From Burkholderiales bacterium 70-64 (GTDB taxonomy: Bacteria; Pseudomonadota; Gammaproteobacteria; Burkholderiales; Burkholderiaceae_E): a stretch of 64,000 nt of DNA. The stretch covers positions 514-64,513 of the forward strand of contig MKUQ01000026.1 of the NCBI GenBank assembly GCA_001898645.1. The letters run 5' to 3'. This document shows positions 4,834 through 21,899 of the stretch, one piece after another (the first letter of the stretch is position 1; every line of letters begins with the position of its first letter). The notes beneath the pieces are model-generated. The model searched no databases and had not been told where the DNA came from. It saw nothing but the letters and a program-made list of their open reading frames with translations. Position numbers and translations under genes: made by a program.

Positions 4834-5967
4834 ATGGCATTCGTCCCCTGGGACAACCCGATGGGCACCGACGGTTTCGAGTTCATCGAGTACGCGGCGC
4901 CGGATCCGGCGGCGATGGCGGCCGTCTTCGAACGGCTGGGCTTCAGCGCCGTCGCGCGCCACCGGCACAAGGACGTGACGCTGTATCGCCAGGGCGGCAT
5001 CAACTTCATCATCAACGCCGAGCCCGGCAGCTTCGGGCAGCGCTTCGCGCGCCTGCACGGCCCCTCGATCTGCGCCATCGCCTTCCGGGTGGCCGACGCC
5101 GCGGCAGCCTACCGGCGCGCCCTCGACCTGGGCGCCTGGGGCTTCGACCATCGCAGCGGCCCGATGGAGCTGAACATCCCGGCCATCAAGGGCATAGGCG
5201 ACAGCCTGATCTACCTGGTCGACCGCTGGAAGGGCAAGGGCGGCGCGCCGGCGGGCAGCATCGGCGACATCGACATCTACGACGTCGACTTCGTGCCGAT
5301 CCCTGGCGCCGATCCGCAGCCGTTCGGCCACGGGCTCAGCGCCATCGACCACCTGACGCACAACGTGCATCGCGGCCGGATGAAGGAGTGGGCCGAGTTC
5401 TACGAGCGGCTGTTCGGGTTCCGCGAGATCCGCTATTTCGACATCGAGGGGCAGGTCACCGGCGTGAAGTCCAAGGCCATGACCAGCCCCTGCGGCAAGA
5501 TCCGCATTCCGATCAACGAGGAAGGCACCGAGCGGCCCGGACAGATCCAGGAATACCTGGACATGTACCACGGCGAAGGCATCCAGCACATCGCGCTGGC
5601 CTCGAACGACCTGCACCGTACGGTGGACGCGCTGCGCGCGGCCGGCGTCAAGCTGCTCGACACCGTCGACACCTACTACGAGCTGATCGACAAGCGCATC
5701 CCCGGCCATGGCGAAGACGTCGCGGAGCTGAGGAAGCGCAGGATCCTGATCGACGGCGCGCCGGGCGACCTGCTGCTGCAGATCTTCTCCGAGAACCAGC
5801 TCGGCCCGATCTTCTACGAGTTCATTCAGCGCAAGGGCAACCAGGGGTTCGGCGAAGGCAACTTCAAGGCGCTGTTCGAATCGATCGAGCTCGACCAGAT
5901 GCGCCGCGGCGTGCTCGACGGCCCCCGGCGCGGGCCGGCTTCAACTCCGACGGATTCCCAGACATGA
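4834..5967 (+). CDS. hpd: 4-hydroxyphenylpyruvate dioxygenase
   Basis: Converts 4-hydroxyphenylpyruvate to homogentisate in tyrosine catabolism, using Fe(II). The 377-residue protein has two vicinal-oxygen-chelate domains. The metal ligands are visible in the second: His in LSAIDHLTH, His in GEGIQHIAL and Glu in LLQIFSENQ. The start is supported by AGGGAGG 6 nt upstream. The family usually ends soon after the RRGVL motif, but here about 15 extra residues ([16 protein letters not shown]) follow before the stop. That stop overlaps the next start as ATGA. The extra tail coincides with a change in sequence style and with a 14-bp repeat found again near 21.87 kb, so it may translate a junction. 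Confidence 0.95.
5925..5938. repeat. Left copy of a 14-bp direct repeat bounding the catabolic island
   Basis: CCGGCGCGGGCCGG occurs here, in the non-conserved tail of hpd, and again in the same orientation at 21871-21884, just after the last island gene. It could be a duplicated target or a recombination footprint. Because it is pure G/C in GC-rich DNA, chance cannot be excluded. Confidence 0.5.
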
Positions 5968-6668
5968 CCTTCACGATCCTCGGCTTCTGCCCCAAGACCG
6001 GAAAGGCCGGTTTCGCGCAATCGACGAGCACGCCGGCCGTGGGCTGGCGCTGCAGCGACGTCGTGCTGCACCGTGGCATCGTGACCGTGCAGGCGCACGC
6101 CGACTACCGCCAGTTGCAGCGGGCGAAGCGGCTCATGGAGTCCGGCCATTCGCCGTCCAGGGTGCTGGACGATCTGCGCGGGGGCGACCCGTACATCGAG
6201 TATCGGCAGATCGCCGTGCTCGATCTCGAGGGCCGATCCGCGGTCTACACGGGGCCGAAAGCGCGCGCGTGGGCGGGCGAGGTCGTCGGCGACGACCACG
6301 TCGCCACGGGCAACGTGCTCGTGGGCGAGACGGTCGTGCGTTCGATGTCGGAGTGCTTCGCGGCGCGCGGCGGGGAGGCGCTCGAGGACCGGCTCATGGC
6401 GGTGCTCGAGGCCGGGCGCGACGCGGGCGGACAGCCCGACGGTCAGACCTCGGCGGCCGTCGTCGTCTACGAGCGGCACGAGTTCCCGATCGTGAACCTG
6501 CGCGTCGATGCCGCGCTCGAGCCCGTGGGCGAGCTGCGCCGCATCTACGACTGGTTCAGGCCGCTGATCCCGTACTACGTGCAGCGCACGCTCGACCCGG
6601 GCTCCGTGCCGCCGATGCGCACCGTGCTCGCGGAGCTGGGCCTGCGCCAGAATCCCTACGCGGGCTGA
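5964..6668 (+). CDS. DUF1028 family protein (Ntn-hydrolase-like fold)
   Basis: A 234-residue protein matching DUF1028, with the conserved flow from the N-terminal strand (MTFTILGF) through [22 protein letters not shown] and GNVLVG to the C-terminal LRVD segment. The family is predicted to have an Ntn-hydrolase-like fold, but its reaction is not established. The ATG overlaps the hpd stop (ATGA), so it would be co-translated with hpd. Its 3' end overlaps the convergent flavoprotein gene by 13 bp. Nearby RidA domains suggest a role with nitrogenous or reactive metabolites, which is inference. Confidence 0.85.
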
Positions 6669-8155
6669 GGTGCGCCGGCTGCCGCCGTACCCGCATTCAT
6701 TCCCGCGATGCGCCCGAACACGGCGCCGTTGGTGAGCCCGCTGCCACCCGGGTAGTTGAACCAGAAGATCCCGCCGACGAGCTCGCCCGCCGCGTAGAGC
6801 CCCGGGATCGGACGGCCGTCGGTGTCGATGACCTGCGCGTCGGTGTTGATGCGCAGCCCGCCGAACGTGAAGGTGATCCCGCAGGTCACCGCGTAGGCCT
6901 CGAAGGGCGGCGTGTCGATCGTGTTCGCCCAGTTCGACTTCGGGATCGCGAGCCCTTCGGTGCAGCGGCCGTCCTTGACGTTCGGGTTGAACGGGATGTC
7001 GGTACGCACGGCGGCGTTGTACCGCCTGATCTCCTCGAGTGCCGCCTTCTGGTCGGTGTCCTCGAGCTGCGCGACGAGGCCCTCGAGCGTGTCGGAGACG
7101 CGCCGCGTGACCTGCTTGATGCGGTATTCGTCGCGCAACTGCTGCTTGACCTTCGCGTCGAAGATCTGCCACGCGAACTGCCCCGGCTGCTGCAGGATGA
7201 CGCGGCCGTAGCGCGCGTAGGTGTAGTTGCGGAAGTCGTAGCCCTCGTCGAGGAAGCGACGGCCTTCGGCGTTGATGCAGATGCCCCACGGATACGAATG
7301 CTTCTGGAATCCGTCTCCGACGGCGAGGTCGCCGAACTCGGGCGCGTTGCGCTCCCAGGCGATCGCGTGGCACCCCGACCAGTTGCCCACGGGCGAGGCG
7401 CCGATCGCGAGCGCCATGCCGATCGCGTCGCCCGTGTTGAAGCGCGTGCCGCGCACCTTCGCCAACTCCCAGCCCGGGCCGAGATAGCGCGTGCGCCACT
7501 CGGGGTTCGCCTGGAAGCCGCCGGCGGCGAGCACGACGGCGCGCCCGCGTACTTCCTGCGTCTTTCCGCTGCGACGCACGCGCACGCCGTGCACGCCGTC
7601 GTCGTCGGCGAGCAGCGACAGCGCGCGCGCTTCGTACCAGATCTCGATCCCGTTCTTCTGCGCGATCTGCACGAGCGACTGCACGAGGCCGGGGCCGCCG
7701 CCGACGGCCTCGAGCGTGAGCCCGCCCCAGAACTTGAACTTGCCGTCGAGCTTGAACGCCTGACGCCCCCAGGCAGCCGTGAAGCGGACGCCTTTCGTGC
7801 GCATCCAGTGCACGGTAGGGAAGCTGCGGCGCACGAGCAGCTCGGAGAGGTCGGGGTCGCAGCGGTACTCGGTGAGGCGGCCGAGGTCGTCGAGGAACTT
7901 CTCCTCGGTGTAGTCGCCGAAGTCGGTGCTCGCCATCTCCTGCTCGGTGAGATCGGGAATGAGCTGCCTGAGGTCGTCCACGCCGTTGTAGACGATGCGG
8001 AACAGCCCGGCGGTGAAGCGGGAGTTGCCCCCGGCCTCGTCCTCGTTCGCGCGCTCGAGCACGAGCACCTTTTCGCAACGTTCGCGCGCGGCGAGCGCCG
8101 CGCACAGGGCCGCGTTGCCTGCGCCGACGACGATCACGTCGTAGTCCGCTGTCAT
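6656..8155 (-). CDS. FAD-dependent dehydrogenase of the fumarate reductase/KSTD superfamily, TcuA-like
   Basis: A 499-residue flavoprotein. It opens with the Rossmann motif VVGAGNAALCAALAARE and the following acidic LVLER. The C-terminal FAD segment is GLYAAGELVGG followed by a YPGGSGLTNGAVFGRIAG stretch. Overall it resembles tricarballylate dehydrogenase TcuA and the 3-ketosteroid delta-1-dehydrogenase/FrdA flavoproteins, which desaturate or reduce C-C bonds next to carboxyl or keto groups. There is no signal peptide, so it is cytosolic. AAGGA precedes the ATG at 8155. It is divergent from the RidA/MaoC operon, and the shared intergenic region carries a putative GntR site. Exact substrate unknown. 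Confidence 0.85.
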   Translation of the reverse strand: MTADYDVIVVGAGNAALCAALAARERCEKVLVLERANEDEAGGNSRFTAGLFRIVYNGVDDLRQLIPDLTEQEMASTDFGDYTEEKFLDDLGRLTEYRCDPDLSELLVRRSFPTVHWMRTKGVRFTAAWGRQAFKLDGKFKFWGGLTLEAVGGGPGLVQSLVQIAQKNGIEIWYEARALSLLADDDGVHGVRVRRSGKTQEVRGRAVVLAAGGFQANPEWRTRYLGPGWELAKVRGTRFNTGDAIGMALAIGASPVGNWSGCHAIAWERNAPEFGDLAVGDGFQKHSYPWGICINAEGRRFLDEGYDFRNYTYARYGRVILQQPGQFAWQIFDAKVKQQLRDEYRIKQVTRRVSDTLEGLVAQLEDTDQKAALEEIRRYNAAVRTDIPFNPNVKDGRCTEGLAIPKSNWANTIDTPPFEAYAVTCGITFTFGGLRINTDAQVIDTDGRPIPGLYAAGELVGGIFWFNYPGGSGLTNGAVFGRIAGMNAGTAAAGAPQPA

Positions 8156-8207
8156 CGGGATCCTTTTCGAGCTGGGATACGTCGGAACGACGTTGTTGAT
8201 CGCCATT

Positions 8208-8223
8208 GTATACTTCGGCATAC
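8208..8223. promoter_or_regulatory. Putative GntR operator: GTATAC-N4-GCATAC
   Basis: In the 129-bp region between the divergent flavoprotein and triple-RidA genes lie GTATAC (8208-8213) and GCATAC (8218-8223), 10 bp apart start to start. FCD-type GntR regulators often bind palindromes centred on GTATAC. The same arrangement occurs at 12758 and 12851. The site contains a TATACT -10-like hexamer reading toward the RidA gene. Confidence 0.55.
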
Positions 8224-8284
8224 TGAACGCAACCACCGAGGTGACGGCCGTTCCGGTCGTAGCCGCAGAAGACGGAATGCTCCC

Positions 8285-9412
8285 GTGAAGCCGATCGAAC
8301 CCGCGCAGTTCCCGTGGAAGGACTTCCGCCGCTACACGTATCCGCTCGGGCTCGACCTCGGCGACTGCGCGTTCCTCTCGGGGATGACGGCCTCGACCTA
8401 CGACGCCGCACTCGACAAGGTGGTCGCCAAGGGAACGCTGCGCGAGCAGACCTCGACGGTGATCGAGAAGATCCGCGCGGTGCTGCAGGCTGCGGGCTAC
8501 GGCGCCGGCGACGTCGTCTCGATCGTGCAATACGTGCCCGCCGCGGCGCTGGGCTCGCTCGCCGAGTTCGACGAGCTGCTGCGGGCGGGCGGCCTCGGCG
8601 GCGCGGCGCGCCACGTCGTTCCTGTCGCACGGCTGCTGCGGCGCGATGCGCTGCTGGAGATCGAGGCGATCGCTGCGCGCAGGAGCGGGCGCACGGGCGA
8701 GGCCGTGCGCATCGCCTCCAGTGGCGGGAACGCGCTCGCCTTCGGCGGGCACGCCGGCGGAACGATCGAGGCGCAGATCGAGCGGCTCTCGGGCCTGCTG
8801 GCGGCCTCGGGAAGCGGGTGGTCGCAGGTTGCACGCCTGCGCGTCTTCGTGGCGAGCGACGCGGCGGCCGCGCTCGACGAAGCCGTCGACGCAATCCGCT
8901 CGCGCGTTCCCGTGCTGCCCGCCGTCCCGGCCGTCGGCGTTCCCGCGCTGCCGCCGGGATACGACGGCGCGCAACTCGCGATCGAGTGGTTGACGCCCCC
9001 GCGTCCGGGCTCCCGACCGCAGGCCGACCCGTCGGAATCGTTGCAGGCGGTCGCTTCGGGCCTCGTGCGCCGCGCCGGGCCTTTCCTCGTCGCGACTGGG
9101 CTGCAAGCGGATGCGGGCGCCGGCGGCCTCCGGGAGCAGGCGCGCTATCTTTACGGCGAGGCCGTCCCGGCACTGCTCGCGCGACACGGTGCGGGCATGG
9201 AGCATCTCGTGCAGACCGTCGAATGGCTTCCGCTCGATGCGCTGCCCGAGTACCGGCCGACGGCCGAGATCCGGCGCAGCCTGCTGAGCGAGCCGTTTCC
9301 CGTCGCCTCGGGGCTCGTCTGCTCGGCGCTGCCCGCGGGCGCGAAGCTCGCCGTGGATTTCGTGGCGCGCGTGCCCTCGGATGCGGGCGCGGCGCGGGAG
9401 TCGGCATCGTGA
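8285..9412 (+). CDS. Protein of three tandem RidA/YjgF-like domains
   Basis: A 375-residue protein starting at GTG; the nearby ATG at 8277 is out of frame. Domain 1 (about residues 1-130) ends with the RidA signature RRDALLEIEAIA. Domain 2 (about 135-245) starts GGNALAFGGHAGG and domain 3 (about 255-375) starts RRAGPFLVATGLQ. Domains 2 and 3 are diverged and lack the EIEAIA end. Single RidA proteins are ~130 residues, form trimers and hydrolyse reactive enamines/imines. A three-domain chain could form a pseudo-trimer within one polypeptide. Its stop overlaps the next start (GTGA). It lies first in a three-gene operon with the MaoC-like pair. Confidence 0.8.
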   Translation: MKPIEPAQFPWKDFRRYTYPLGLDLGDCAFLSGMTASTYDAALDKVVAKGTLREQTSTVIEKIRAVLQAAGYGAGDVVSIVQYVPAAALGSLAEFDELLRAGGLGGAARHVVPVARLLRRDALLEIEAIAARRSGRTGEAVRIASSGGNALAFGGHAGGTIEAQIERLSGLLAASGSGWSQVARLRVFVASDAAAALDEAVDAIRSRVPVLPAVPAVGVPALPPGYDGAQLAIEWLTPPRPGSRPQADPSESLQAVASGLVRRAGPFLVATGLQADAGAGGLREQARYLYGEAVPALLARHGAGMEHLVQTVEWLPLDALPEYRPTAEIRRSLLSEPFPVASGLVCSALPAGAKLAVDFVARVPSDAGAARESAS

Positions 9413-9936
9413 GCGAACCCGTGAACGAATCAGGGCGCGAATCCGGACACGAGTTCGAGCGCGATTTCGAGCGGCTGAAGTCCCAGCGCGCGATCTATGC
9501 CGCCAGGACGCCGCTCGGCCTCGCCAGCTTCGACTGCTTCGCGCGCGCAATCGGCGACACCTGCGCGATCTACGTCGACGACGCGGCCGCCCGCGCGGCC
9601 GGCTACGAGCAGGCGATCGCGCCGCCGACCTTCGTCTGCGAGACCGTGCAGTACTCGCGCCGTGAGCCCGACGAGAACGGCTATATCGGGCACGCCTGGG
9701 ATTTCCCGATGGAAGGCTGGCAGCGCGTGCGCGGCGGCAACGCCTACCGCTTCCACCAGCCGGCCGTGGCGAGCGACGTGCTGCACGTCGAGTGGAGCGT
9801 CGAGTCGGTGCGCGCGACGAGCGACTCGCGCGGAAAGCCGATGTGGGTCGTCGTGCAGCTCGCGCTTTACCGCAACCAGCGCGGCGAGCTGCTCGCGGAG
9901 AACCGCGAGACGATCGTCTACCGCAGGAGCGCCTGA
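9409..9936 (+). CDS. MaoC-like dehydratase, N-terminal (FAS1-type) hot-dog subunit
   Basis: A 175-residue hot-dog-fold protein of the FAS1-like dehydratase N-terminal type. It is recognisable from ARAIGDTCAIYVDD and APPTFVCETVQYSR, a central substrate-lid stretch and the HVEWSVESVR strand. Such half-domains pair with a MaoC-type partner to form a hydratase acting on enoyl-CoA esters. The partner is the next gene, whose ATG overlaps this stop. In actinobacterial steroid side-chain degradation the equivalent pair is ChsH1/ChsH2, so a CoA-ester hydratase is likely. GTG start, coupled to the RidA gene. Confidence 0.75.
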   Translation: MSEPVNESGRESGHEFERDFERLKSQRAIYAARTPLGLASFDCFARAIGDTCAIYVDDAAARAAGYEQAIAPPTFVCETVQYSRREPDENGYIGHAWDFPMEGWQRVRGGNAYRFHQPAVASDVLHVEWSVESVRATSDSRGKPMWVVVQLALYRNQRGELLAENRETIVYRRSA

Positions 9937-10340
9937 TGTCGTCCCACCTGCCCGACCTCGTCGTCCGTCTCGACCTCCCACGCTCGATGGCCTATGGCGC
10001 CGCCACCTGGGACTGGCACCGCATGCACTACGACACCGAAGATGCGCGGGCGCGCGGGTTCGAGGGACCCGTCATCGACGGCCAGATGTTCGGCGCACTG
10101 ATCGCGCGCCAGGTGCGCGAGTGGGGCGGCCCGCGCATCCGTTTCCTCGAGCTCGAGTTCCGCAATCGCGGCTTCGTCGTCGTACCCTCGACGGTGACGC
10201 TGCGCGCGAGCATCGCCGCGCGCAGCGAGACGCCACAGGGCGAGCGGGTCGAGATCGCCACGCAGGTCTTCGACGAGGCAGGCCGCTGCGTGGTCGACGG
10301 CGGGCGCACGGTCGTCGAGTTGCCGCGCGCCGGGGGCTGA
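9936..10340 (+). CDS. MaoC-like hydratase subunit (catalytic hot-dog half)
   Basis: A 134-residue hot-dog protein carrying the hydratase-2 signature: Asp and His in TWDWHRMHYDTEDARARGFEG (an overall D-x(4)-H arrangement), followed by PVIDGQMFGALIARQ. The chain is half the size of a double-hot-dog hydratase. It should work as a heteromer with the preceding FAS1-type subunit, with which it shares one base of stop and start. The pair probably hydrates an unsaturated acyl-CoA produced by the island's acyl-CoA dehydrogenase. Confidence 0.8.
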   Translation: MSSHLPDLVVRLDLPRSMAYGAATWDWHRMHYDTEDARARGFEGPVIDGQMFGALIARQVREWGGPRIRFLELEFRNRGFVVVPSTVTLRASIAARSETPQGERVEIATQVFDEAGRCVVDGGRTVVELPRAGG

Positions 10341-10419
10341 GGCGCACGGAGAGGCTGAGACGCACCGGGAGCTGGGGCGCGCCGGGAACCGGGTGCCGGA
10401 GCCCGCGGCGCCCGACATT

Positions 10420-11574
10420 TCAGAGCGTCGCTGCGGTCCCGAGGATCACGGTGCTCTGGCTCGACAGCACGCCGCCGTTGCCGTGCGCGATCGCCGTCTC
10501 GGCGCCCGCGACCTGGCGCTCGCCGCATTCGCCGCGCAGCTGGCGGGTCGCCTCGATGAGCAGCAGCAGCCCGTACTGGCCGGGATGGCAGTACGAGAGA
10601 CCGCCGCCGTTCGTGTTGACGGGCAGGCCGCCCTTCGGGCCGATGCCGCGCTCGACGACGAAGCGGCCGCCTTCGCCCTTCGGGCAGAAGCCGAGGTCCT
10701 CGAGGAACAGGATCGTGCAGATCGTGAAGGCGTCGTAGACCTCGACGACGTCGATCTCCGAGGGCGAGAGCCCGGCCTTGCGGTAGGCGATCCCGCCCGA
10801 GCGCGCGGCGCCCGTCACCGTGAGGTCGGGCATGCTCGAGATCGAGACGTGGCTCAGGTGCTCTCCGCTGCCGAGCAGATAGACGGGTTCCCGCCGCAGC
10901 GAGCGTGCGCGCGAAGCCGAGGTGACGACGATCGCGCCGCCGCCGTCGGTGACGAGGCAGGCGTCGCGAACGGTCAGCGGGTAGCTCACCATGCGCGCGG
11001 CGAGCACCTCCTCGATCGTGAGCGGCTGCTTCTCCCACGCCGCCGGATTCAGCAGCGCCCACTCTCGCGCCGCGACCGCCACGGCAGCGAGCTGCTCGCG
11101 CGTCGTTCCGTACTGGTGCATGTGCCGCGAGGCCGCGAGCGCGTAGGCGCTCGCCGGAAGCACGGGACGGTACGGCGTCTCGTAGGGATTCGGCTCGCGC
11201 GGCGAGACGAGGTTCCGGCCCGACGAGCGCTGCGTGCTCGCATAGGCGATGACGGCGACCTCGCAGAGGCCGGCCTCGATCGCCGCCTGGGCGTGCGCGA
11301 GCTGCGTCATGAACGACGAGCCGCCCATGTAGGTGACGTCGTGATGGCGCGGATCGATGCGCAGGTACTCGCAGATCGCCATCGTCGTCATGCGCGGCTG
11401 CGAGGCGCAGGCGAAGAGCCCGTCGACGTCGTGCGGCGACAGGCCAGCGTCGCGCAGCGCGCGCAGCACGGCCTGCGCCATGAGGTCGGTCGGCGACAGG
11501 CCGGCCGCGACCGCGCCGAGATCGGACTCGGCCGCGCCGACGATGGCGACGGAGCCTCGGCGATTCGTCGTCAT
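10420..11574 (-). CDS. Thiolase-fold protein (SCP-x/Ltp type) lacking the nucleophilic cysteine
   Basis: A 384-residue thiolase-superfamily protein of the lipid-transfer/SCP-x kind. Where true thiolases carry the acyl-accepting Cys, this one reads YMGGSSFMTQ. The C-terminal NTNGGG...HPGQYG element keeps the His. The C-terminus GNGGVLSSQSTVILG is family-typical. Cys-less members of this group, such as Ltp2 and its relatives, form complexes with DUF35 proteins and do retro-aldol cleavage of beta-hydroxyacyl-CoA rather than thiolysis. Here the gene directly follows a DUF35 gene with a 4-nt overlap. Retro-aldolase activity is therefore a good inference, unproven for this protein. Confidence 0.85.
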   Translation of the reverse strand: MTTNRRGSVAIVGAAESDLGAVAAGLSPTDLMAQAVLRALRDAGLSPHDVDGLFACASQPRMTTMAICEYLRIDPRHHDVTYMGGSSFMTQLAHAQAAIEAGLCEVAVIAYASTQRSSGRNLVSPREPNPYETPYRPVLPASAYALAASRHMHQYGTTREQLAAVAVAAREWALLNPAAWEKQPLTIEEVLAARMVSYPLTVRDACLVTDGGGAIVVTSASRARSLRREPVYLLGSGEHLSHVSISSMPDLTVTGAARSGGIAYRKAGLSPSEIDVVEVYDAFTICTILFLEDLGFCPKGEGGRFVVERGIGPKGGLPVNTNGGGLSYCHPGQYGLLLLIEATRQLRGECGERQVAGAETAIAHGNGGVLSSQSTVILGTAATL

Positions 11575-11969
11575 TTCGCGGAGTCGAGCGGAACGAAGAC
11601 CGGGTACGGCGCCTCTTCGCCGGGCGCCTCGTGGATGCGGACGCGAACGCGCGTCCCGATCGCGACCGATTCGGGCGCGACTCCCTCGATGCGCGTCATG
11701 AGGCGGAATCCCTCGTCGACATCGACGAGCGCGACGTTGTAGGCGTCGCCCTCGCGCGGCCGGATCCAGGTGGTGGCGTATACGGTTCCGAGCCCGCGGC
11801 TCACCCGCCACTCGATGCGCTCGCTGCCCGTGTAGGGACAGGCCAGGCGCGGGAAGAAGAATGCGCGCTGCGCCTCGAGGCTGTAGGGGAACGCGAGCTC
11901 GCCGCGGCGCAGGTGCTCGCGGAAGGTCTCGAGGGGCGAGATGGTCGCGCGCTCGGCCCAGCCGCTCAT
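11571..11969 (-). CDS. DUF35 OB-fold protein, partner of the thiolase-like protein
   Basis: A 132-residue DUF35-family protein with an N-terminal helix (SPLETFREHLRRGELAFPYS), a short zinc-ribbon-like region and an OB fold (GTVYATTWIRPREGDAYNVALVDVDEGFRLMTRIEG). The zinc ribbon normally has four cysteines, but only one (LACPYTGSERIEWR) is left here, so metal binding is doubtful. The gene overlaps gntR upstream and the thiolase gene downstream by 4 nt each, implying equimolar production with the thiolase partner. Confidence 0.8.
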   Translation of the reverse strand: MSGWAERATISPLETFREHLRRGELAFPYSLEAQRAFFFPRLACPYTGSERIEWRVSRGLGTVYATTWIRPREGDAYNVALVDVDEGFRLMTRIEGVAPESVAIGTRVRVRIHEAPGEEAPYPVFVPLDSAK

Positions 11970-12694
11970 GCTTTCACGGCGTGGAAAAGCATCTCGACGC
12001 GCTCGCGATAGGCGCCGCGGATGTGCTCGCGCATGTGCGCCTCGGCCGTCTCCGGGTCGCGCGCGGCGATCGCCTTGACGATCTTCGCGTGCTCGCCCGC
12101 GGCCCGGCGTGCGCGTTCCTCGTTCGCGAGCGTGCTCGGACCGAGCAGCGCGAGCGAATCGTGCAGGGCGCGCAGCGACTTGAGCAGGAAGCGGTTCTTC
12201 GCGGCCGTGTAGATCAGCGCGTGGAAGCGCCGGTTGGCGTCGGCGGCCGTTCTCCAATCGGCTCTTGCCTGCATCTCGGCAGCGACCATCTCCTCGAGCA
12301 TGCGCAGCTCGATGCGCGAGGCCGATTCGGCCGCCAGGCGCGCCGCCGTGCCCTCGAGCACCTCGCGCATGTAGTAGAGCTCCTCGACCAGCTCCTCGTC
12401 GACCGTCGTGACGACGAGGCCCGCGCGCGGCGCCATCGTGAGCAGCCCCTCGGCCTCGAGGCGCTGGATCGCCTGCCGCACGGGCGTGCGGCTCATCTCG
12501 AGCCACTCGGCCATCTGGGATTCGCGGATTCGCGTGCCGGGCGCGAGCGTGCCGTCGCGGACCGCGGTGAGGATCCTCGCGTAGGCGCCGTCGGAGAGCC
12601 CGCCCGAGCTCTCGGGGGCGATCGAGGGCGGCGCGGGAGTCCGCGTGCCCCTGGCGGACATCCGGGGCCGGGCTGCTGCGGCGCGTGACGACAC
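11966..12694 (-). CDS. GntR-family regulator, FadR/FCD subfamily
   Basis: A 242-residue transcription factor. After a ~30-residue disordered leader comes a winged helix-turn-helix (about 33-100, with IRESQMAEWLEMSRTPVRQAIQRL and the wing LLTMAPRAGLVV). An all-helical FCD effector domain follows (DANRRFHALIYTAAKNRFL and EHAKIVKAIAARDPETAEAHMREHI give the usual Asp/His metal or ligand site). The start is GTG at 12694, 7 nt after GGGGAGG; the ATG at 12701 is out of frame. It heads an operon with DUF35 and thiolase genes and is divergent from the transporter operon. Probably a ligand-released repressor binding the GTATAC pairs at 8208, 12758 and 12851. Confidence 0.9.
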   Translation of the reverse strand: MSSRAAAARPRMSARGTRTPAPPSIAPESSGGLSDGAYARILTAVRDGTLAPGTRIRESQMAEWLEMSRTPVRQAIQRLEAEGLLTMAPRAGLVVTTVDEELVEELYYMREVLEGTAARLAAESASRIELRMLEEMVAAEMQARADWRTAADANRRFHALIYTAAKNRFLLKSLRALHDSLALLGPSTLANEERARRAAGEHAKIVKAIAARDPETAEAHMREHIRGAYRERVEMLFHAVKA

Positions 12695-12757
12695 TGTTCA
12701 TCCTCCCCTGCGGGACTTTCCGGCGATTCCGGATTCTACGCACGTGCGTGCACGAAT

Positions 12758-12773
12758 GTATACGACTGTACGA
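12758..12773. promoter_or_regulatory. Putative GntR operator near gntR: GTATAC-N4-GTACGA
   Basis: GTATAC at 12758-12763, with a weaker half-like GTACGA exactly 10 bp further on, lies 64 bp upstream of the gntR start. It matches the spacing of the sites at 8208 and 12851 and fits autoregulation of gntR-DUF35-thiolase. Confidence 0.45.
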
Positions 12774-12829
12774 GATGATCCGCCGCCCTGCGGCACCGAT
12801 GCTCCGACCTGCAGTCATGCATATGGCTC

Positions 12830-12857
12830 TTGCGCAGACGAGCCACCTACGTATACT
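12830..12857 (+). promoter_or_regulatory. Sigma-70-like promoter of the transporter/catabolic operon
   Basis: TTGCGC (12830-12835), a 16-nt spacer and TATACT (12852-12857) read toward the solute-binding-protein gene at 12954. The -10 hexamer lies inside the first GTATAC of the putative GntR operator, so bound regulator would block polymerase. Confidence 0.5.
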
Positions 12858-12866
12858 ATCGTATAC
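12851..12866. promoter_or_regulatory. Putative GntR operator: two perfect GTATAC hexamers 10 bp apart
   Basis: GTATAC occurs at 12851-12856 and again at 12861-12866, one helical turn apart. It is the best of the three composite sites in the island and overlaps the predicted -10 element of the transporter operon. Confidence 0.6.
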
Positions 12867-12953
12867 AGACCTTCCGACATCCCTGACGTGAAGGCAACGC
12901 AGATTGCCGCAACGGTGAAGCGTCGTCGCTTCAGAAATCAAAGGAGACGGTTC

Positions 12954-14054: not shown

Positions 14055-14065
14055 AGGGCCACGTC

Positions 14066-15172
14066 ATGCTGCGCACGCCGATCTGCGAGCTGCTCGGAAT
14101 CCGCCTGCCGATCCTGCAGGCCGGAATGGGGAAATTCAAGGGCCTGGTGACCCCGCCCGAGCTGGTCGCGGCCGTCTCGAACGCGGGCGGCCTCGGCTGC
14201 CTCGGCGCAACGGGCCTCGAGCCCGAGGAGCTGAGGCAGGCGATCCGCAGGATCCGGCAGCTGACCGACCGCCCCTTCGGCGTCAATCTCATCATCCCTA
14301 CCAGGATGTCGACGCGCACCGGGACGCGCGCAGAGATCCGCGCCGACATCCGCGAGAAATATCCGGCGCACTGGGATCTCGTGCAGCGAATCTTCCGCGA
14401 AGAGGGGATCGAGCCGCGCACGATCGACAAGGAATACAGCCTCACCGAGGAGATGACGGCGGCGCAGACCGAGGTGGTGTTCGAGGAGCGGGTCCCGCTC
14501 TTCGTGGTCGCGCTCGGCGATCCGGGCGCCGTGAGGCAGCGCGCGCGGGATGCGGGAATGAAGGTGGCCGGGCTCGCGGGAACCGTTCGCAACGCGCAGC
14601 GCCAGCTCGCCGCCGGCGTCGATTTCGTCATCGCTCAGGGCGGCGAGGCCGGCGGGCATGTCGGTGTCGTTTCCACCTTTCCCCTCGTACCGCAGGTCGT
14701 CGACGCAGCCGGTACCACTCCGGTCGTGGCTGCCGGCGGCATCGCCGACGGACGCGGCCTGGCTGCGGCGCTCGCGCTGGGTGCGCAGGCGATCTGGTGC
14801 GGCACCGCGTTCCTTTTCTCCGACGAGGTGGACCTGCACCCCGTGCACCGTGCGCAACTGCGTGCAGGCAGCTCGGAAGACTTCGTGGCGAGCCGCGTGT
14901 TCACGGGCAAGCCCTCGCGCACCTATCACAACAGGATTCACGACGCCTGGGCTTCCGCGAAGCTCGATCCGCTGCCGATGCCGCACCAGAAGGTGCTGAT
15001 GGAGGATTTCCTCGACGCGGCGCGCGCCGCCGGGCGGCTCGACGTCGTGAGCAATCCCTCGGGCCAGATCGCCGGCATGCTCGAGAAGACGCGGCCGGCG
15101 GCGCAGATCGTCGAGGAGATGGCCGCACAGGCCGAGGCGGTGATCCGCGGGAGCATGAGCTACCTCGCATGA
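14066..15172 (+). CDS. Nitronate monooxygenase/2-nitropropane dioxygenase-like flavoprotein
   Basis: A 368-residue TIM-barrel FMN protein of the NMO/NPD family. The N-terminus LLGIRLPILQAGMGKFKG, the AGGLGCLGATG loop, VIAQGGEAGGHVG and VVAAGGIADGRGLAAALALGAQAIWCGTAFL are the family's FMN and active-site segments. Such enzymes oxidise alkyl nitronates, but many relatives are enoyl reductases or of unknown function, so nitronate chemistry is not assured. It lies between the solute-binding-protein and acyl-CoA-ligase genes in the same operon. Confidence 0.85.
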   Translation: MLRTPICELLGIRLPILQAGMGKFKGLVTPPELVAAVSNAGGLGCLGATGLEPEELRQAIRRIRQLTDRPFGVNLIIPTRMSTRTGTRAEIRADIREKYPAHWDLVQRIFREEGIEPRTIDKEYSLTEEMTAAQTEVVFEERVPLFVVALGDPGAVRQRARDAGMKVAGLAGTVRNAQRQLAAGVDFVIAQGGEAGGHVGVVSTFPLVPQVVDAAGTTPVVAAGGIADGRGLAAALALGAQAIWCGTAFLFSDEVDLHPVHRAQLRAGSSEDFVASRVFTGKPSRTYHNRIHDAWASAKLDPLPMPHQKVLMEDFLDAARAAGRLDVVSNPSGQIAGMLEKTRPAAQIVEEMAAQAEAVIRGSMSYLA

Positions 15173-17313
15173 TGAAGCCCGACGCGCCTGCGCGAGGAGA
15201 GCGCAACGACCCGTCCGTCCTGTTCGACTTCGAATCGGTCGTGATCGTCGGCGCGTCCGACGATCCGAGGCGCATCGGCGGCGTCCCGATCTTCCTGCTC
15301 AGGAAATACGGCTTCGAGGGGAAGATCTACGGGCTGAACCCGAAGCGCGACACGGTGCAGGGCGTTCCGTGCTTCGCCGAGCCCGCGCAGATCCCGGGCG
15401 AAGTCGATGTCGCGATCTTCTGCGTGGCCGCCGAGAAGGTCCGCGAGCTGCTGCCCGGACTGAAGCGCAAGGGGCTCAAGGGCGCCGTGATCTTCAGCTC
15501 GGGCTTCAGCGAAACCGGCGAGAGCGGGCGCGCGCTGCAGCGCTGGCTCACCGAATACGCGCGTGAGAACCGCATCGCGGTGCTCGGCCCGAACTGTCTC
15601 GGGCAGATGTCCTTCGCGATGCGGCGCCCGCTGACCTTCTCGAACCCCTTCGTGGCGCTGCCCGCCTCGCCGCCGGGGCCCGTCGCGCTGCTGAGCCAGA
15701 GCGGCGCCGTCGCGACGAACATCTGGGCCGATGCGGTCCACGCCGGCGCGCGTTTCTCGCACGTGATCATGACGGGCAACGAGGCCGATCTCGGGGTGCC
15801 CGACTTCCTCGAATACCTGGCCGACGACCGCGGCACCGAGGCCGTCATCGGCTACATCGAGGCGCTGAGCGACGGGCCGCGCTTCTGCGCGGCCGCCGCG
15901 AAGCTGCGCAGCCGCGGCAAGCCGCTGGTGCTGATCAAGGTCGGCCGGTCGCCGGCCGGCCAGGACGCGGTCTCGTCGCACACCGGGCAGCTCTGCTCCG
16001 ACGATTCGGGCTACCAGGCCGCATTCGACCGCTACGGGATCGTGCGCGCGAGCTCGCTCGAGGAGCTCGAGGACTACGCGCGCATCTTCGCGATCGGCGC
16101 GATGCAGCCGAAGGTCACGATCGTGACCACTTCGGGCGGCGCCGGCGTCTACGCGACCGACCTCTGCACCGAGCTCGGCATCGCGATGAGCGTGCTCTCG
16201 CCCGAGACCGAAGCGGGGCTCGCGCAGATCGTTCCGGCCTACGGCCGGGTGCGCAACCCGGTCGACCTCACGGCGCACGTCGTCAACGACGTCTCGATCC
16301 TGAAGACGAGCCTGCGCCTGATGCTCGACGACCCCGAGACCGGCGTGCTGCTCTTCCTGCTGAGCGGAAAGGGCCTGCCCGAGCAGGCGAGCGAAGTCAT
16401 CTCGGTGCTCACGTCGATCCAGGAGGCGACCTCGAAGAAGATCGTGCTCTGCTGGCTGGGCGTCCCCGAGGAAGTACGACGGCAGGGCCGTGAAGCCGGG
16501 CTCGTCGTCTACCGGGACCCGGCGCGCTTCCTGCGGCCGCTGAAGCGGTACTTCGAGGCGGAGGAGATGCCGCCGGCGCCGATGACCGCCGAGGCGCCGA
16601 CCGCCCTGCCGGACCCGGCGGAGCCGCGGTCCGCGCTCGATCGCGCGTGGGTGCGCGCGCGCCTCGAGCGCGTCGGCAACGCCGCGCCGGTGCTCGGCGA
16701 ACGCGACTGCATGGAACTGCTCGAGAGGAGCGGCATCGACTGCCCGCGTCGCTGGCACGCGCGATCGGACGAGGAAATCCGCCGCATCGGCGGGCAGGTT
16801 CCCTATCCTTGCGTCATGAAGATCGTCGAACCCATGATCGCGCACAAGAGCGACGCCGGCGGCGTCGTCACCGGGATCGCATCGGCCGCCGAGCTGATCG
16901 CGGCCTGGGAGCGCATGGCCGGGCGCCTCGGCGCGCGCGAAGTGCTCGTCGCCGAGCAGATCGAGAAGGGCGTCGAGGTGCTCGTCGGCTGCATGCGCGA
17001 CGAAACCTTCGGCGTGCGGCTCACGCTCGGCGCCGGCGGAGTCTGGACGAACTTCCTGCGCGACGCCGTGACGCTGATCCCGCCCTTCGACGAGGCCTAC
17101 CTGCGCGCATCGCTCGAGAAGCTCGCCATCTGGGCGCCGATCGCCGGCGCACGCGGCCAGGAGAAGCTCGCCGCCGATGCGCTCGTGGCCGCCGTCTCGA
17201 AGATCGCGGCGCTGGGCGCGGCGCTCTGCGAGGAGGTCCGCGAATTCGAGTGCAATCCCGTCATCGTCACGCGCACGCGAGCGGTCGCCGTCGATGCGAT
17301 CGGCTTCGCCTAG
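15169..17313 (+). CDS. NDP-forming acyl-CoA synthetase (acetate-CoA ligase family, fused alpha-beta)
   Basis: A 714-residue chain with a CoA-binding domain (VVIVGASDDPRRIGGVP), two succinyl-CoA-ligase-like domains and a C-terminal ATP-grasp part (from about residue 500). The phospho-histidine is in VSSHTGQLCSDDSGYQAAF. It would make an acyl-CoA from a free acid with ATP (or GTP) giving NDP and phosphate, a reversible, cheap activation step. The first ATG overlaps the upstream stop; a second ATG follows directly, so the start could be 15172. It likely activates the imported acid for the acyl-CoA dehydrogenase and hydratase of the island. Confidence 0.9.
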   Translation: MMKPDAPARGERNDPSVLFDFESVVIVGASDDPRRIGGVPIFLLRKYGFEGKIYGLNPKRDTVQGVPCFAEPAQIPGEVDVAIFCVAAEKVRELLPGLKRKGLKGAVIFSSGFSETGESGRALQRWLTEYARENRIAVLGPNCLGQMSFAMRRPLTFSNPFVALPASPPGPVALLSQSGAVATNIWADAVHAGARFSHVIMTGNEADLGVPDFLEYLADDRGTEAVIGYIEALSDGPRFCAAAAKLRSRGKPLVLIKVGRSPAGQDAVSSHTGQLCSDDSGYQAAFDRYGIVRASSLEELEDYARIFAIGAMQPKVTIVTTSGGAGVYATDLCTELGIAMSVLSPETEAGLAQIVPAYGRVRNPVDLTAHVVNDVSILKTSLRLMLDDPETGVLLFLLSGKGLPEQASEVISVLTSIQEATSKKIVLCWLGVPEEVRRQGREAGLVVYRDPARFLRPLKRYFEAEEMPPAPMTAEAPTALPDPAEPRSALDRAWVRARLERVGNAAPVLGERDCMELLERSGIDCPRRWHARSDEEIRRIGGQVPYPCVMKIVEPMIAHKSDAGGVVTGIASAAELIAAWERMAGRLGAREVLVAEQIEKGVEVLVGCMRDETFGVRLTLGAGGVWTNFLRDAVTLIPPFDEAYLRASLEKLAIWAPIAGARGQEKLAADALVAAVSKIAALGAALCEEVREFECNPVIVTRTRAVAVDAIGFA

Positions 17314-17339
17314 GCCGGCTCAGGCGACGGAGGGCGCGA

Positions 17340-18113
<774 letters not shown>

Positions 18114-18163
18114 ATCGACACTTCCTGATCGCGGCGACCGCCGTCGGCGCGAGGAGAAAGACC

Positions 18164-18931
18164 ATGCGAGACAAGACGAAGTACACGGCACCGCTCGTCT
18201 TCCTGGTGCTGTTCCTGTTGTTCTGGCAGTACGCACCCGCACTGTTCTCGATCCAGAGCAACATCCTGCCGCCTTTCTCGGGCGTGATGCGGGTGTTCAC
18301 GGATTCGCTCACCGTGAACCTCTATTTCGAGCACGCGCTCGTCACGCTCAAGGAAGCCGCCCTCGGTCTCGTCATCGGCGGCGGGCTCGGCCTCGTCACG
18401 GGCGTCGTGCTGACCGAGTCGCGCATGCTCATGACGACCTTCTATCCGTACATCGTCGCGCTGCAGTGCATGCCGAAAGTCGCGATCGCGCCGCTGCTCG
18501 TGATCTGGTTCGGCTTCGGCATCACCTCGAAGGTCGTGATCGTCGCGCTGCTGTGCTTCTTCCCGGTGCTGGTGAACACGATCACGGGGATCCGCAGCGT
18601 CAGCCGCGAGCAGCTCGAGCTCTTCGCCGCGGTGCGCGCCACGCGCTTCAAGACGCTCGTTCACCTGCTGATCCCGGCGGCGCTGCCCAGCATCCTGACC
18701 GGCTTCGAGCTCGCCGTCGTGGTGTCGCTGCTCGGCGCGATCGTCGGCGAGTTCGTCGGCGCCGAGGAAGGGCTCGGCGTGCTGCTGCTGCAGGCGCAGT
18801 TCCAGATGGCGATGCCGAGCGTCTTCGCGATCCTGCTCGTGCTCGCGCTGCTCGGCGTGATCTTCAACCTCCTGATCCGGACGATCCGCAAGCGGACGCT
18901 GTTCTGGGTCGCCGGCGAGTCGGCGCGATAG
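18164..18931 (+). CDS. ABC transporter permease, SsuC/TauC type
   Basis: A 255-residue inner-membrane permease with about six transmembrane segments. It has the ABC-coupling EAA-type loop (ELFAAVRATRFKTLVHLLIPAALPSILTGFELAVV). GAGGAG lies before the ATG. It completes an importer with the ATPase just upstream and the NMT1-type solute-binding protein. Import specificity must be inferred from the surrounding catabolic genes. Confidence 0.95.
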   Translation: MRDKTKYTAPLVFLVLFLLFWQYAPALFSIQSNILPPFSGVMRVFTDSLTVNLYFEHALVTLKEAALGLVIGGGLGLVTGVVLTESRMLMTTFYPYIVALQCMPKVAIAPLLVIWFGFGITSKVVIVALLCFFPVLVNTITGIRSVSREQLELFAAVRATRFKTLVHLLIPAALPSILTGFELAVVVSLLGAIVGEFVGAEEGLGVLLLQAQFQMAMPSVFAILLVLALLGVIFNLLIRTIRKRTLFWVAGESAR

Positions 18932-18957
18932 CCGCTCGCCTCATCCGGAAGCATCAA

Positions 18958-20133
18958 ATGTCGTCGTACCGTCTCACCGAAGAACAGCAGGCCCTGCGGC
19001 AGGCTGCGCGCCGCTTCGCGCAGGAAGTGCTGTCGCCACGCGCGATGCAGGTCGAGCGCGAAGGCAGCGACTTCCCGTCCGACATCCTCCAGCAGATGGC
19101 CGCGCTGGGCTTCCTCGGCCTCGACATTCCGCAGGCCTACGGCGGGCAGGGGTTCGACACGCTCACTTCGGCCGTGCTGCTCGAGGAGATCTCCGGCGCC
19201 TGGTTCTCGGCGGCGAGCTACGCGATGACGCTCGCGACGGGCCCCATCCTCGCGGCAGGCACCGAGGAGCAGAAGCGGCGCTACCTGCCGGCGCTGTGCC
19301 GCGGCGAGCTGGTGACGGCCTTCGCATTGACCGAGCCCACGGGCGGCTCCGATGCCGCGTCGATCCAGACCTTCGCGCGGCGCGACGGCTCCGACTACGT
19401 GATCGACGGAACGAAGTTCTTCATCACCAACGGTCACCGTGCCGACGTGCTGGTGGTCTTCGCGCGCACCCGGAAGGACGCGCCGCGCGGACAGGGGATC
19501 TCGATCTTCCTGGTCGAGAAGGGCACGCCGGGCTTCTCGGTGGGCCAGCGCTTTCGCACGATGGGGCACACTGCGAACCCGATCTGGGAGCTGCGCTTCG
19601 AGGGATGCCGTGTCCCGGCCGCCAATCTCGTCGGCGACGAAGGCCGGGGCTTCGGCTACCTGCAGCGCGATTTCGCGAAGATCCGCGCCGTCTACGGAAG
19701 CCGCTGCGTCGGCGTCGCGCAGTGGGCCATGGACTACGCGCTGCGCTACGCGCGGGAGCGCACCGCCTTCGGGCAGCCCGTCGCGTCGTTCCAGGGCGTG
19801 CGCTTCCGCGTCGCCGACATCCTCACGAAGATCGAGGCCGCGCGCCAGCTTTCGTACCGCGCCGCCGTCATCGCCGACGAAAGCCTGCCGGAGGCGCCGG
19901 CGGCTGCGTCGATGGCCAAGCACTTCGCCGCCGACGTCTGCCTGGAAGCGACCGCCGAAGCGATCCAGCTCATGGGAGGGCACGGCTACACGGTCGATCA
20001 CCCGCTCGAGCGCATGTTCCGCGAGGTCAAGCTGTTCCAGATCGGCGACGGCACGAGCGAGGCATTGCGGATCCTGATCTCGCGCTTCGCGAACCAGGCG
20101 ATCGCGAACGGGAAGTCGGCGCAGCTCGGCTGA
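18958..20133 (+). CDS. Acyl-CoA dehydrogenase
   Basis: A 391-residue flavoenzyme with all three domains: N-terminal helices (LTEEQQALRQAARRFAQEVL), the beta domain with the FAD/substrate motif FALTEPTGGSDAAS and KFFITNGHRADVLVVFAR, and the C-terminal helical domain with the family pattern QLMGGHGYTVDHPLERMFREVK. At the position of the MCAD catalytic Glu (YEGT) the sequence reads IGDGTSE, i.e. Asp. Related enzymes can use a base from another helix, so activity is still expected. It should desaturate the CoA ester made by the ligase in the same operon. Confidence 0.95.
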   Translation: MSSYRLTEEQQALRQAARRFAQEVLSPRAMQVEREGSDFPSDILQQMAALGFLGLDIPQAYGGQGFDTLTSAVLLEEISGAWFSAASYAMTLATGPILAAGTEEQKRRYLPALCRGELVTAFALTEPTGGSDAASIQTFARRDGSDYVIDGTKFFITNGHRADVLVVFARTRKDAPRGQGISIFLVEKGTPGFSVGQRFRTMGHTANPIWELRFEGCRVPAANLVGDEGRGFGYLQRDFAKIRAVYGSRCVGVAQWAMDYALRYARERTAFGQPVASFQGVRFRVADILTKIEAARQLSYRAAVIADESLPEAPAAASMAKHFAADVCLEATAEAIQLMGGHGYTVDHPLERMFREVKLFQIGDGTSEALRILISRFANQAIANGKSAQLG

Positions 20134-20172
20134 GCGCCGTATCGGGATGACGAGAGGACAAGAGGGACGTCA

Positions 20173-20655
20173 ATGCAGGAGCGCACGAGGACCATCACCT
20201 GGGCGGAGACCGACCAGTACCCTCGGTGGATTCAGGAAAAGCCCGGGCTCGAGTTCGTCCAGGCGCTCTGCGACGGAACGCTGCCGAATCCGCCGATGTT
20301 CAGCCTGCTCGGCTTTCGCATGGTCGGCGTTCGCGAAGGCGAGGTCACGGCCGAGTGCGAGATCGGCGAGCACCTCTACAATGCCGGCGCCGTCGTCCAT
20401 GGCGGAGTCGCGGCGACGCTGATCGACACGACGACCGCGCTCGCCGTGCGCAGCTGCATGCCGGCGGGTACGCGCATGACGACGGTCGACCTGAAGCTGA
20501 ACCTCGTGCGCCTGCTCTCGAAGGATTCGGACCCCGTCACGGCTGTCGGCACCGTCCTGCATCGCGGCCGCAAGATCTGCGTGGCCGAGGCGAAGGTATG
20601 CACCCGCGAGGGCAAGCTCGTGGCCGCCGGAATGGCCTCGCTCGCCATCCTCTGA
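20173..20655 (+). CDS. PaaI-family hot-dog thioesterase
   Basis: A 160-residue hot-dog thioesterase. The conserved YNAGAVVHGGVAATLIDTTTALAVRS contains the PaaI-type Asn/His-Gly-Gly...Asp active site, and TVDLKLNLVRL is the following strand. Such enzymes release CoA from dead-end aryl- or acyl-CoA esters. GAGGGACG precedes the ATG, and the stop is one base away from the next start, so it is part of the operon. Role here: rescue of CoA or a true pathway step, not distinguishable. Confidence 0.9.
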   Translation: MQERTRTITWAETDQYPRWIQEKPGLEFVQALCDGTLPNPPMFSLLGFRMVGVREGEVTAECEIGEHLYNAGAVVHGGVAATLIDTTTALAVRSCMPAGTRMTTVDLKLNLVRLLSKDSDPVTAVGTVLHRGRKICVAEAKVCTREGKLVAAGMASLAIL

Positions 20656-20656
20656 G

Positions 20657-21856
20657 ATGGAACCGCTGCTGTTCTCGGCGATCGAGCTGCGCGGGCTGCG
20701 CCTGCGCAATCGCGTCGTCGTGTCCCCGATGCTCAGCTATTCGGCAACGGGCGGCCATGCGAACGACGAGCACCTGGCGCACTACGCGCGCTTCGCGACG
20801 GGCGGCGCGGGTCTCGTGTTCCTCGAGGCGACGAAGATCGATCCGCGCGGCTGCTCGACCGCGCGCGACCTCGGACTGTGGAAGGACGAATTCGTCGAGC
20901 CGCTCGCGCGCATTGCCGCGCTGGTCAAACGCAGCGGCGCAGCGGTCGGCATCCAGCTGAGTCATTCGGGGCGCAAGGCGCGGCGCTCGTTGCCGTGGGA
21001 AGGCAACGAGCCGCTCGCCGGCTGCCCGGGCGTGGATCACGGCGAGCCGTGGGAGCTCGTCGGCCCGAGCGCCGTGGCGCACTCGCCGAAGTACGAAACG
21101 CCGCGCGAGCTCGCTCCGGCCGAGATCGACGAGCTCATCGAGCGCTGGGGGCAGGCGGCCGAGCGCGCGCAGCGCGCCGGCTTCGACGCCATCGAGATCC
21201 AGGGCGGCCACGGCTACCTCGTCCACCAGTTCCTGTCGCCCGTCGCGAACCGGCGCCGCGACGAATACGGCGGCCCGCTCGAGAACCGCATGCGCTTCGC
21301 GCTGGACGTCGTTCGCCGGATCCGCCGATCGTGGCCCCGCGAGAAACCGCTCTTCTTCCGGATGTCGGTCGTCGACGACGCGGGCTGGACGCTCGACGAC
21401 AGCGTGGTGCTCGCGCGCACGCTGAAGGAAGCTGGCGTCGACGTGATCGACTGCAGCTCGGGAGGCATGCTCGACGCCGTGCGCGGCGGCCCTCCGATCG
21501 GCTACGGCTACCAGGTCGAGTACGCGCGGCGCATCCGCGAGCTCGCCGACGTGCGCACGATGGCTGTCGGCCTCATCGTGCACGGCGACCAGGCCGAGAC
21601 CATCGTGCGGGAGGGCAGCGCCGATCTCGTCGCGCTCGGCCGCGAGTTCCTGCACAACCCGAACTGGCCGCTGGACGCCGCGCAGAAGATGGGCGTCGCG
21701 GGCGCCTTCGGGCTCGCGCCGGCGCGCGTCGGGTTCTGGCTCGAGAAGCGTGCGCGCGTGCGCGGGGTCCGGCCTTCGACGTGGGGAAGGGGGATCGACG
21801 GGGACGAAGGCGCGCCGCGGGAGCCCGCCGGCGAGCCCGGGGCGAAGCGTCCGTAG
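20657..21856 (+). CDS. Old-yellow-enzyme family NADH:flavin oxidoreductase
   Basis: A 399-residue FMN TIM-barrel protein of the YqjM/XenA branch (RNRVVVSPMLSYSATGG, GIQLSHSGRKA, FLSPVANRRRDEYGGPLENRMRF, GREFLHNPNWPL). The active-site pair usually reads H-x-x-H (HAAHGY in YqjM). Here it is QGGHGY, so the first substrate-binding His is Gln. The second His and the active-site Tyr in SYS remain. It probably reduces an activated C=C bond, or has shifted specificity. The last ~30 residues are a low-complexity Arg/Gly/Pro tail running to the island edge. Confidence 0.9.
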   Translation: MEPLLFSAIELRGLRLRNRVVVSPMLSYSATGGHANDEHLAHYARFATGGAGLVFLEATKIDPRGCSTARDLGLWKDEFVEPLARIAALVKRSGAAVGIQLSHSGRKARRSLPWEGNEPLAGCPGVDHGEPWELVGPSAVAHSPKYETPRELAPAEIDELIERWGQAAERAQRAGFDAIEIQGGHGYLVHQFLSPVANRRRDEYGGPLENRMRFALDVVRRIRRSWPREKPLFFRMSVVDDAGWTLDDSVVLARTLKEAGVDVIDCSSGGMLDAVRGGPPIGYGYQVEYARRIRELADVRTMAVGLIVHGDQAETIVREGSADLVALGREFLHNPNWPLDAAQKMGVAGAFGLAPARVGFWLEKRARVRGVRPSTWGRGIDGDEGAPREPAGEPGAKRP

Positions 21857-21870
21857 GCGATGCGTCCGCT

Positions 21871-21884: not shown

Positions 21885-21899
21885 GGCGGGGCCGCCGCT

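Follow-up and report, generated by a model that had tools for sequence, protein, structure and literature searches.

We analysed a 64,000-nucleotide stretch of contig MKUQ01000026.1 from Burkholderiales bacterium 70-64 (hereafter the window) and found at positions 5964-21856 a block of 16 genes, including a gene for a protein with three tandem Rid domains in one chain (3xRid) that adjoins two genes for halves of a MaoC-type hydratase (MaoCa and MaoCb). Since the window has a GC content of 0.71 and carries long overlapping shadow open reading frames (ORFs), the genes were called by codon usage; competing frames were settled by codon-position GC, and families were assigned with Pfam and NCBIfam (Table 1). 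The 3xRid gene was masked by longer shadow ORFs and was recognised through its codon-position GC together with its family match. According to strand and gene overlap, the block comprised four transcription units, namely the FAD gene (minus), Rid-MaoCa-MaoCb (plus), GntR-DUF35-aldolase (minus) and the run from the solute-binding protein (SBP) gene to the OYE gene (plus), and the DUF1028 gene stood outside them. A first-pass annotation, made from the letters of the stretch alone, had counted three units; its gene list named the right families over this interval but missed the 4HBT thioesterase. The gene calls agreed with its statement that importer genes are interleaved with enzyme genes. Its label "SsuABC-like" held for the importer at the Pfam and subfamily level, but the NCBIfam matches shown for all three genes were below their cut-offs.

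Table 1. Genes, sequence boxes and extent of the block (window coordinates)
Feature	Position	Strand	Evidence or remark
DUF1028 protein	5964..6668	+	PF06267, E 1.2e-51; 4-bp overlap with the upstream HPPD (4-hydroxyphenylpyruvate dioxygenase) gene
TcuA-like FAD protein	6656..8155	-	NF006130, 583.8 bits vs cut-off 369
3xRid protein, 375 residues, GTG start, three Rid domains in one chain	8285..9412	+	
MaoCa, FAS1_DH type, presumed inert half (Asp50, Tyr55)	9409..9936	+	PF13452
MaoCb, presumed catalytic half (Asp26, His31)	9936..10340	+	PF01575
Thiolase-fold presumed aldolase (Gly84-Gly85, Tyr280 in YDAF, His330)	10420..11574	-	PF22691
DUF35 / OB_ChsH2_C, free-standing	11571..11969	-	PF01796, E 8.5e-14
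GntR/FCD regulator	11966..12661	-	PF07729, PF00392
NMT1/SsuA-type SBP	12954..14054	+	PF09084, E 5.3e-31; start checked
NMO/FabK-family flavoprotein	14066..15172	+	PF03060, E 3.7e-63
NDP-forming acyl-CoA synthetase	15169..17313	+	PF13607, PF13549, PF13380
ABC ATPase	17340..18113	+	PF00005
ABC permease	18164..18931	+	PF00528
Acyl-CoA dehydrogenase (ACAD)	18958..20133	+	PF00441, PF02771, PF02770
4HBT hotdog thioesterase	20173..20655	+	PF03061; TIGR00369 above cut-off
OYE-family reductase	20657..21856	+	PF00724, E 1.7e-65
GTATAC box	8208..8213		divergent FAD/3xRid region
GTATAC box	12758..12763		overlaps -35-like hexamer of the gntR unit
Two GTATAC boxes, GTATAC-N4-GTATAC	12851..12866 (12851, 12861)		divergent gntR/SBP region
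Acquired block (probable)	5916..21899		similarity to congener G058 interrupted between 5915 and 21900; block genes absent in G058

Two of the flavoproteins could be placed more closely. The FAD protein scored above the NF006130 cut-off, so that the earlier label "TcuA-like" was borne out as a predicted activity. TcuB and TcuC are the partners of TcuA in tricarballylate utilisation (tcu); no partner of either type was detected by Pfam among the 16 block genes and the scanned neighbours, the rest of the genome not being searched. The NMO-family protein had its nearest PDB chains in FabK (E 1.8e-51), followed by NMO (1.2e-37) and PA1024 (6.7e-31), and its match to the FabK model was below cut-off.

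The limits of the block were defined by comparison with congeners. In the congener G058, the genes for HPPD, a short protein, O-acetylhomoserine sulfhydrylase, a CoA-binding protein, a phasin-like protein and FIST stood in the order seen in both flanks of the window. At thresholds of 30% identity and 40% cover, the 20 kb read contained none of the 16 block genes. The similarity between window and G058 (89% and 83%) ended at window position 5915, within the last 17 HPPD codons, and started again at 21900, where the sulfhydrylase gene has its stop codon. In a second congener (G064), HPPD and sulfhydrylase lay close together without the block, the sole block match being a 38% ACAD; in three others (G057, G059 and G066), HPPD was present, and the sulfhydrylase and block genes were not found in the stretch fetched. 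The block was absent from all five congeners with fetched flanks. There was no tRNA in the window and, among the families listed, no repeat pair at the two block junctions. The comparison with the congeners indicated that the block is a discrete unit, which was probably acquired horizontally.

The block also shared a sequence box. The hexamer GTATAC occurred seven times in the window, compared with a mean of 0.78 in shuffled sequences, and none of 100 shuffles reached seven. Four of the seven copies were located within the 418 bp that make up the two divergent promoter regions of the block (FAD/3xRid and gntR/SBP), and these were all the intergenic copies of the window (3244 intergenic bases by our own gene calls); one more, at 11778, lay inside the DUF35 gene. 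The promoter-like match overlapped by the box at 12758 was the only one in 8000-13100. No other palindromic hexamer occurred more than once in the two divergent regions; two GC-rich non-palindromic hexamers also occurred four times there, but they were common window-wide (136 and 104 copies). The accessible text of PMC7797058 reports that the FCD regulator Atu1419 has the operator ATGTATACAT, with two copies in its own divergent promoter and one in a promoter nearby, and the block box has the same core. The Atu1419 regulon of Agrobacterium fabrum (hydroxycinnamate degradation) therefore resembles the block in its GntR/FCD regulator and in GTATAC-core boxes placed twice in a divergent and once in a second promoter; it differs in enzymes and substrate, and the likeness is confined to the regulatory layout. 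The boxes suggest that one GntR/FCD regulon probably extends across the block. The unity of the island, which the first-pass annotation had assumed, was thus supported by both the G058 comparison and the boxes.

To what extent the block recurs was examined with several of its genes as anchors. The full 16-gene set was not conserved around the aldolase (at least 80 loci recovered, with DUF35 and aldolase but without the block): none of 89 other aldolase loci gave a match above 70 bits to 3xRid, MaoCa or MaoCb when four core versions were used as queries, although one 32% MaoCa match was seen in a single locus (L064). Among loci with enough flank, a CaiB homologue lay no more than 3 kb from the aldolase in 10 of 32 with identity of at least 64% and in 7 of 28 with lower identity, so the aldolase has no fixed context. 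The SBP anchor found its own genome only, of 398 in a phylum sample (E 1e-50), and the synthetase anchor, applied to 18 genomes of the genus (E 1e-100), found its own and a single further match, of 36%. As a side observation, five of the aldolase loci (L027, L029, L032, L033 and L043) were on contigs of metagenome-assembled genomes titled "Bordetella parapertussis" with differing isolate codes, and, judged from the titles only, this label looks doubtful.

A smaller core, 3xRid-MaoCa-MaoCb, was found to recur in distant genomes, and MaoCa was the most productive anchor. It was found in 3 of 300 genomes of the order (own, G207 and G337), in 2 of 369 of the class (own and G1081), in 2 of 11 of the family of G337 (G337 and its sister G734, MaoCa 95%) and in 1 of 50 aldolase-bearing genomes, again G337 (50 of the 80 aldolase loci were given). 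With 3xRid as the anchor, at least 2 of 300 genomes of the order, the own genome only among 398 of the phylum, and 1 of 5 in the family of G207 (G207 itself) were found; these counts are lower bounds, because few candidates were scored per genome and the order search missed G337, which was found later. Plasmids gave no match to the window 3xRid or MaoCa, and none above 80% cover for the 3xRid of G207. At all five loci the Rid coding sequence ended at the MaoCa start or within 6 bases of it, including G734, where only the last 130 Rid residues were present on a 4-kb contig.

The surroundings of the core differed among these loci. In G207 (20 kb searched), it was preceded by branched-chain-type importer genes (assigned by look, apart from one binding protein that was confirmed as Peripla_BP_6), ACAD and an alpha/beta hydrolase, and followed by a weakly cupin-like protein and an AMP ligase; on the divergent side were a binding protein, an ATPase, a cupin and NMO. 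In G337 (Betaproteobacteria bacterium isolate CoA8N_M60.1), it was preceded by NMO, a double CoA-transferase III and an enoyl-CoA hydratase and followed by TctC/Bug-type binding proteins (one scanned), and an aldolase was found elsewhere in the genome (L044). In G1081, following CoA-transferase III and MmgE/PrpD, the 3xRid, both MaoC halves, an aldolase homologue (53%), DUF35 and, at the contig edge, ACAD formed one operon. The window NMO was 49-50% identical to those of G207 and G337, and no match to it was found on the G1081 contig; ACAD had no match in the G337 stretches, and DUF1028, the TcuA-like protein, OYE, 4HBT and SBP had none in the G207, G337 or G1081 stretches. Because the partner genes differ among loci, the recurrent unit is 3xRid-MaoCa-MaoCb, around which ligase, CoA transferase, importer and cleavage parts are exchanged. 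The co-occurrence proposed by the first-pass annotation thus failed for the complete set, which was conserved neither at the 89 aldolase loci nor in the five congeners, but held for this core. In literature searches, whose scope left out most subscription journals, we found no paper on such a module: among the papers listed, none was relevant to a RidA/ACAD/MaoC/NMO or a RidA/MaoC/OB-fold/CoA-transferase cluster, and there was none on DUF1028. This rare but recurrent linkage of 3xRid to a split MaoC hydratase is the main point of interest of the locus.

We consider it slightly better than an even chance that the block is an acquired catabolic unit, governed by one regulator, in which a hydratase-aldolase pathway breaks down a single organic acid. 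Several results weigh against this reading. Between 4 and 22 kb, read in 4-kb steps, the tetranucleotide distance from the window mean was 0.199-0.248, against 0.107-0.189 elsewhere, but the rise was modest, and since 36-42 kb (0.205-0.216) and 60-64 kb (0.232) reached similar values, composition alone is weak evidence of acquisition. GTATAC was absent from the fetched G207 and G1081 stretches and occurred once in that of G337, inside a gene, so the box is tied to this block and not to the core. No aldolase or DUF35 was found beside the G207 and G337 cores in the stretches searched, and the ACADs of the window and G207 were only 31% identical. The window ACAD has Asp (GDGT) opposite the usual Glu in YEGT of 1ukw, and its base position may be altered. 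The window aldolase nested in a 48-tip clade (support 0.999) of mostly other contexts, with the G1081 aldolase outside it; the G1081 contig (L133, C45) was a tetranucleotide outlier, at 0.237-0.288 from four other contigs of its genome (0.116-0.198 among those), and may be foreign (horizontal gain) or a contaminant. For the link to the aldolase, this leaves an independent origin, a replacement or contamination.

These points bear on the strongest alternative, in which at least two catabolic units, for example 3xRid-MaoC apart from GntR-DUF35-aldolase, share a site as a loose collection and form no common pathway. It would account for the cores of G207 and G337 without an adjoining aldolase, and for the 89 other loci, all of which had the aldolase but, at the threshold applied, no core. 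The shared GTATAC boxes, the discrete insertion and the single operon of G1081 argue against it, and we regard it as unlikely, although it keeps some weight.

The Rid protein itself was then considered. Pfam scored two of the three Rid domains of the window protein individually, and three in its relatives. Three tandem domains in one chain are also the architecture of the 3x-RidA proteins (e.g. EF_0115), which was named in 2015 and given no function in the accessible text of that paper (Niehaus 2015); a phrase search found nothing beyond it. By description, the block-type 3xRid is set apart from 3x-RidA, in that most of its domains lack the Arg and its gene is tied to the MaoC pair. Of the eight Rid domains that aligned well, domain 1 of the window protein alone carried this essential Arg (Arg105-equivalent), whose role in imine deamination is covered by the accessible part of PMC4433059. 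The structural model pointed to a resemblance to chorismatases, with agreement in the overall fold of a single-chain Rid pseudo-trimer; FkbO and Hyg5 were 11-13% identical to 3xRid, the comparison covered fold likeness alone, and no chorismate context was seen. AtzD (Toblerone fold, cyanuric acid hydrolase) was not among the matches listed for 3xRid.

These residues speak largely against a nitrogen-containing acid whose imine or enamine intermediate is hydrolysed by 3xRid. The Rid fold and the Arg kept in domain 1 are consistent with such a substrate, but the Arg is missing in seven of the eight domains and no pyridoxal phosphate-dependent or amine-oxidase family occurs among the 16 genes, so we think it improbable. 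The earlier suggestion of a possibly nitrogen-containing acid is unsupported, because it rested on RidA as an imine deaminase; no other nitrogen-specific gene was seen in the block. As regards the 3xRid-MaoC unit, we tentatively propose, at somewhat less than even chances, that it forms the centre of an exchangeable CoA-catabolic module not described before, in which a chorismatase-fold 3xRid would cooperate directly with the hydratase in converting an enol, enol-ether or enamine CoA intermediate, and ligase or CoA transferase, importer and aldolase would be swapped between genomes. The recurrent link, with overlapping genes, would give 3x-RidA proteins a first metabolic setting and a testable partner.

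The residues of the hydratase and aldolase were compared with those of known systems. MaoCa had Tyr55 in place of the His of catalytic MaoC proteins, with Asp50 and Tyr55 in four of four relatives, and its nearest solved chains were PDB entries named ChsH1 and ChsH2, with the same stretch aligned; ChsH2 is described as the inert partner with His replaced by Tyr (PMC11321319, accessible text). In MaoCb, Asp26 and His31 were kept in all three aligned sequences. MaoCa and MaoCb are presumed to form a heteromeric hydratase of the ChsH type, with a ChsH2-like inert half and a catalytic half. In the thiolase-like protein, Gly84-Gly85 occupied the site of the nucleophilic Cys of SCP2 and degradative thiolases (Gly-Gly in 90 of 90 aligned sequences), as expected from the earlier description "Cys-less". 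The motifs YDAFT and HPG were likewise present in 90 of 90 relatives, and the homologue of G1081 carried YDSF. According to the accessible text of PMC12329534, Ltp2 uses YDHF and Tyr344, and Sal uses YDCY with Gln352 at the place of Tyr344; neither set was found in the block aldolase, where His330 faced Tyr344 of 6ok1 (Ltp2) in a phmmer alignment with a two-residue gap adjoining. The site predicted from these residues, with Tyr280, His330 and Ala at the His/Cys place, is aldolase-like and of neither known type. It suggests a third active-site constellation (YDAF and His) for thiolase-fold aldolases, outside steroid degradation, and the block supplies a regulator and candidate boxes alongside this variant.

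The comparison with steroid side-chain degradation follows from these residues. The block shares with ChsH1-ChsH2-Ltp2 an inert and a catalytic MaoC half, DUF35, a nucleophile-less thiolase-fold aldolase and ACAD, and with Shy-Sal (bile acid, Comamonas) a proteobacterial hydratase, DUF35 and aldolase; 6ok1 was among the PDB relatives. ChsE is a two-gene ACAD (ChsE1/ChsE2), whereas the block has one ACAD gene, with many others in the genome. DUF35 is a separate gene beside the aldolase, in contrast to its fusion to a MaoC domain in the steroid system and to Shy, a single chain with one MaoC domain fused to DUF35. The block also adds 3xRid, NMO, the NDP-forming synthetase and the ABC importer, and no steroid-ring family was found in 20 scanned proteins of 4834-25806, the rest of the genome not being searched for ring genes. 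It is therefore very improbable that the block is a proteobacterial orthologue of the ChsE/ChsH/Ltp2 or Sal/Shy systems for the side chains of steroids or bile acids. Both the ChsH/Ltp2-type logic and the separation from the steroid system, as put forward by the first-pass annotation, were upheld, the former also by the G1081 operon. Ordinary beta-oxidation with a true thiolase has in its favour the thiolase fold, an NCBIfam "acetyl-CoA acetyltransferase" match above cut-off and the thiolase-type His in HPG, but it is hardly credible given the missing Cys and the absence by Pfam of a 3-hydroxyacyl-CoA dehydrogenase family among the 16 genes, because of which retro-aldol cleavage fits better than thiolysis.

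Returning to a single acquired hydratase-aldolase pathway, we infer each reaction, the substrate class and the role of the regulator from the computed gene content, residues, discrete insertion, shared boxes and recurrence of the core. The acid would be imported by the NMT1/SsuABC-type ABC importer, activated to its CoA ester by the NDP-forming synthetase, dehydrogenated at the alpha,beta position by ACAD and hydrated by MaoCa/MaoCb. The thiolase-fold/DUF35 pair would then cleave the product in a retro-aldol reaction to a ketone or aldehyde and a short acyl-CoA; cleavage of this kind makes a branched or ring-borne beta carbon probable. 3xRid, whose gene overlaps the hydratase gene, may act at the same or a neighbouring step, and our guess is a hydrolase or tautomerase acting on an enol, enol-ether or enamine intermediate. 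The NMO/FabK-like, OYE and TcuA-like flavoenzymes may adjust how unsaturated the substrate or the released product is, the 4HBT protein may release stalled acyl-CoA, and GntR/FCD would control the units through the GTATAC boxes. A branched polycarboxylic acid would fit the TcuA-like protein here, MmgE/PrpD in G1081 and the TctC-type proteins in G337, but these families are common and we attach little weight to the fit.

Two further observations concerned the rest of the window. Immediately beyond HPPD, on the side away from the block, genes for a molybdopterin oxidoreductase and a 4Fe-4S protein were located at 24-4576 (minus strand). In a 745-residue ORF at 35022-37259 (minus strand), residues 32-174 matched an ABC ATPase (PF00005) and residues 277-734 an aldehyde dehydrogenase (PF00171); the ORF looks like an unusual fusion and comes after a four-gene run at 37256-41055, which, by position, is possibly its importer.

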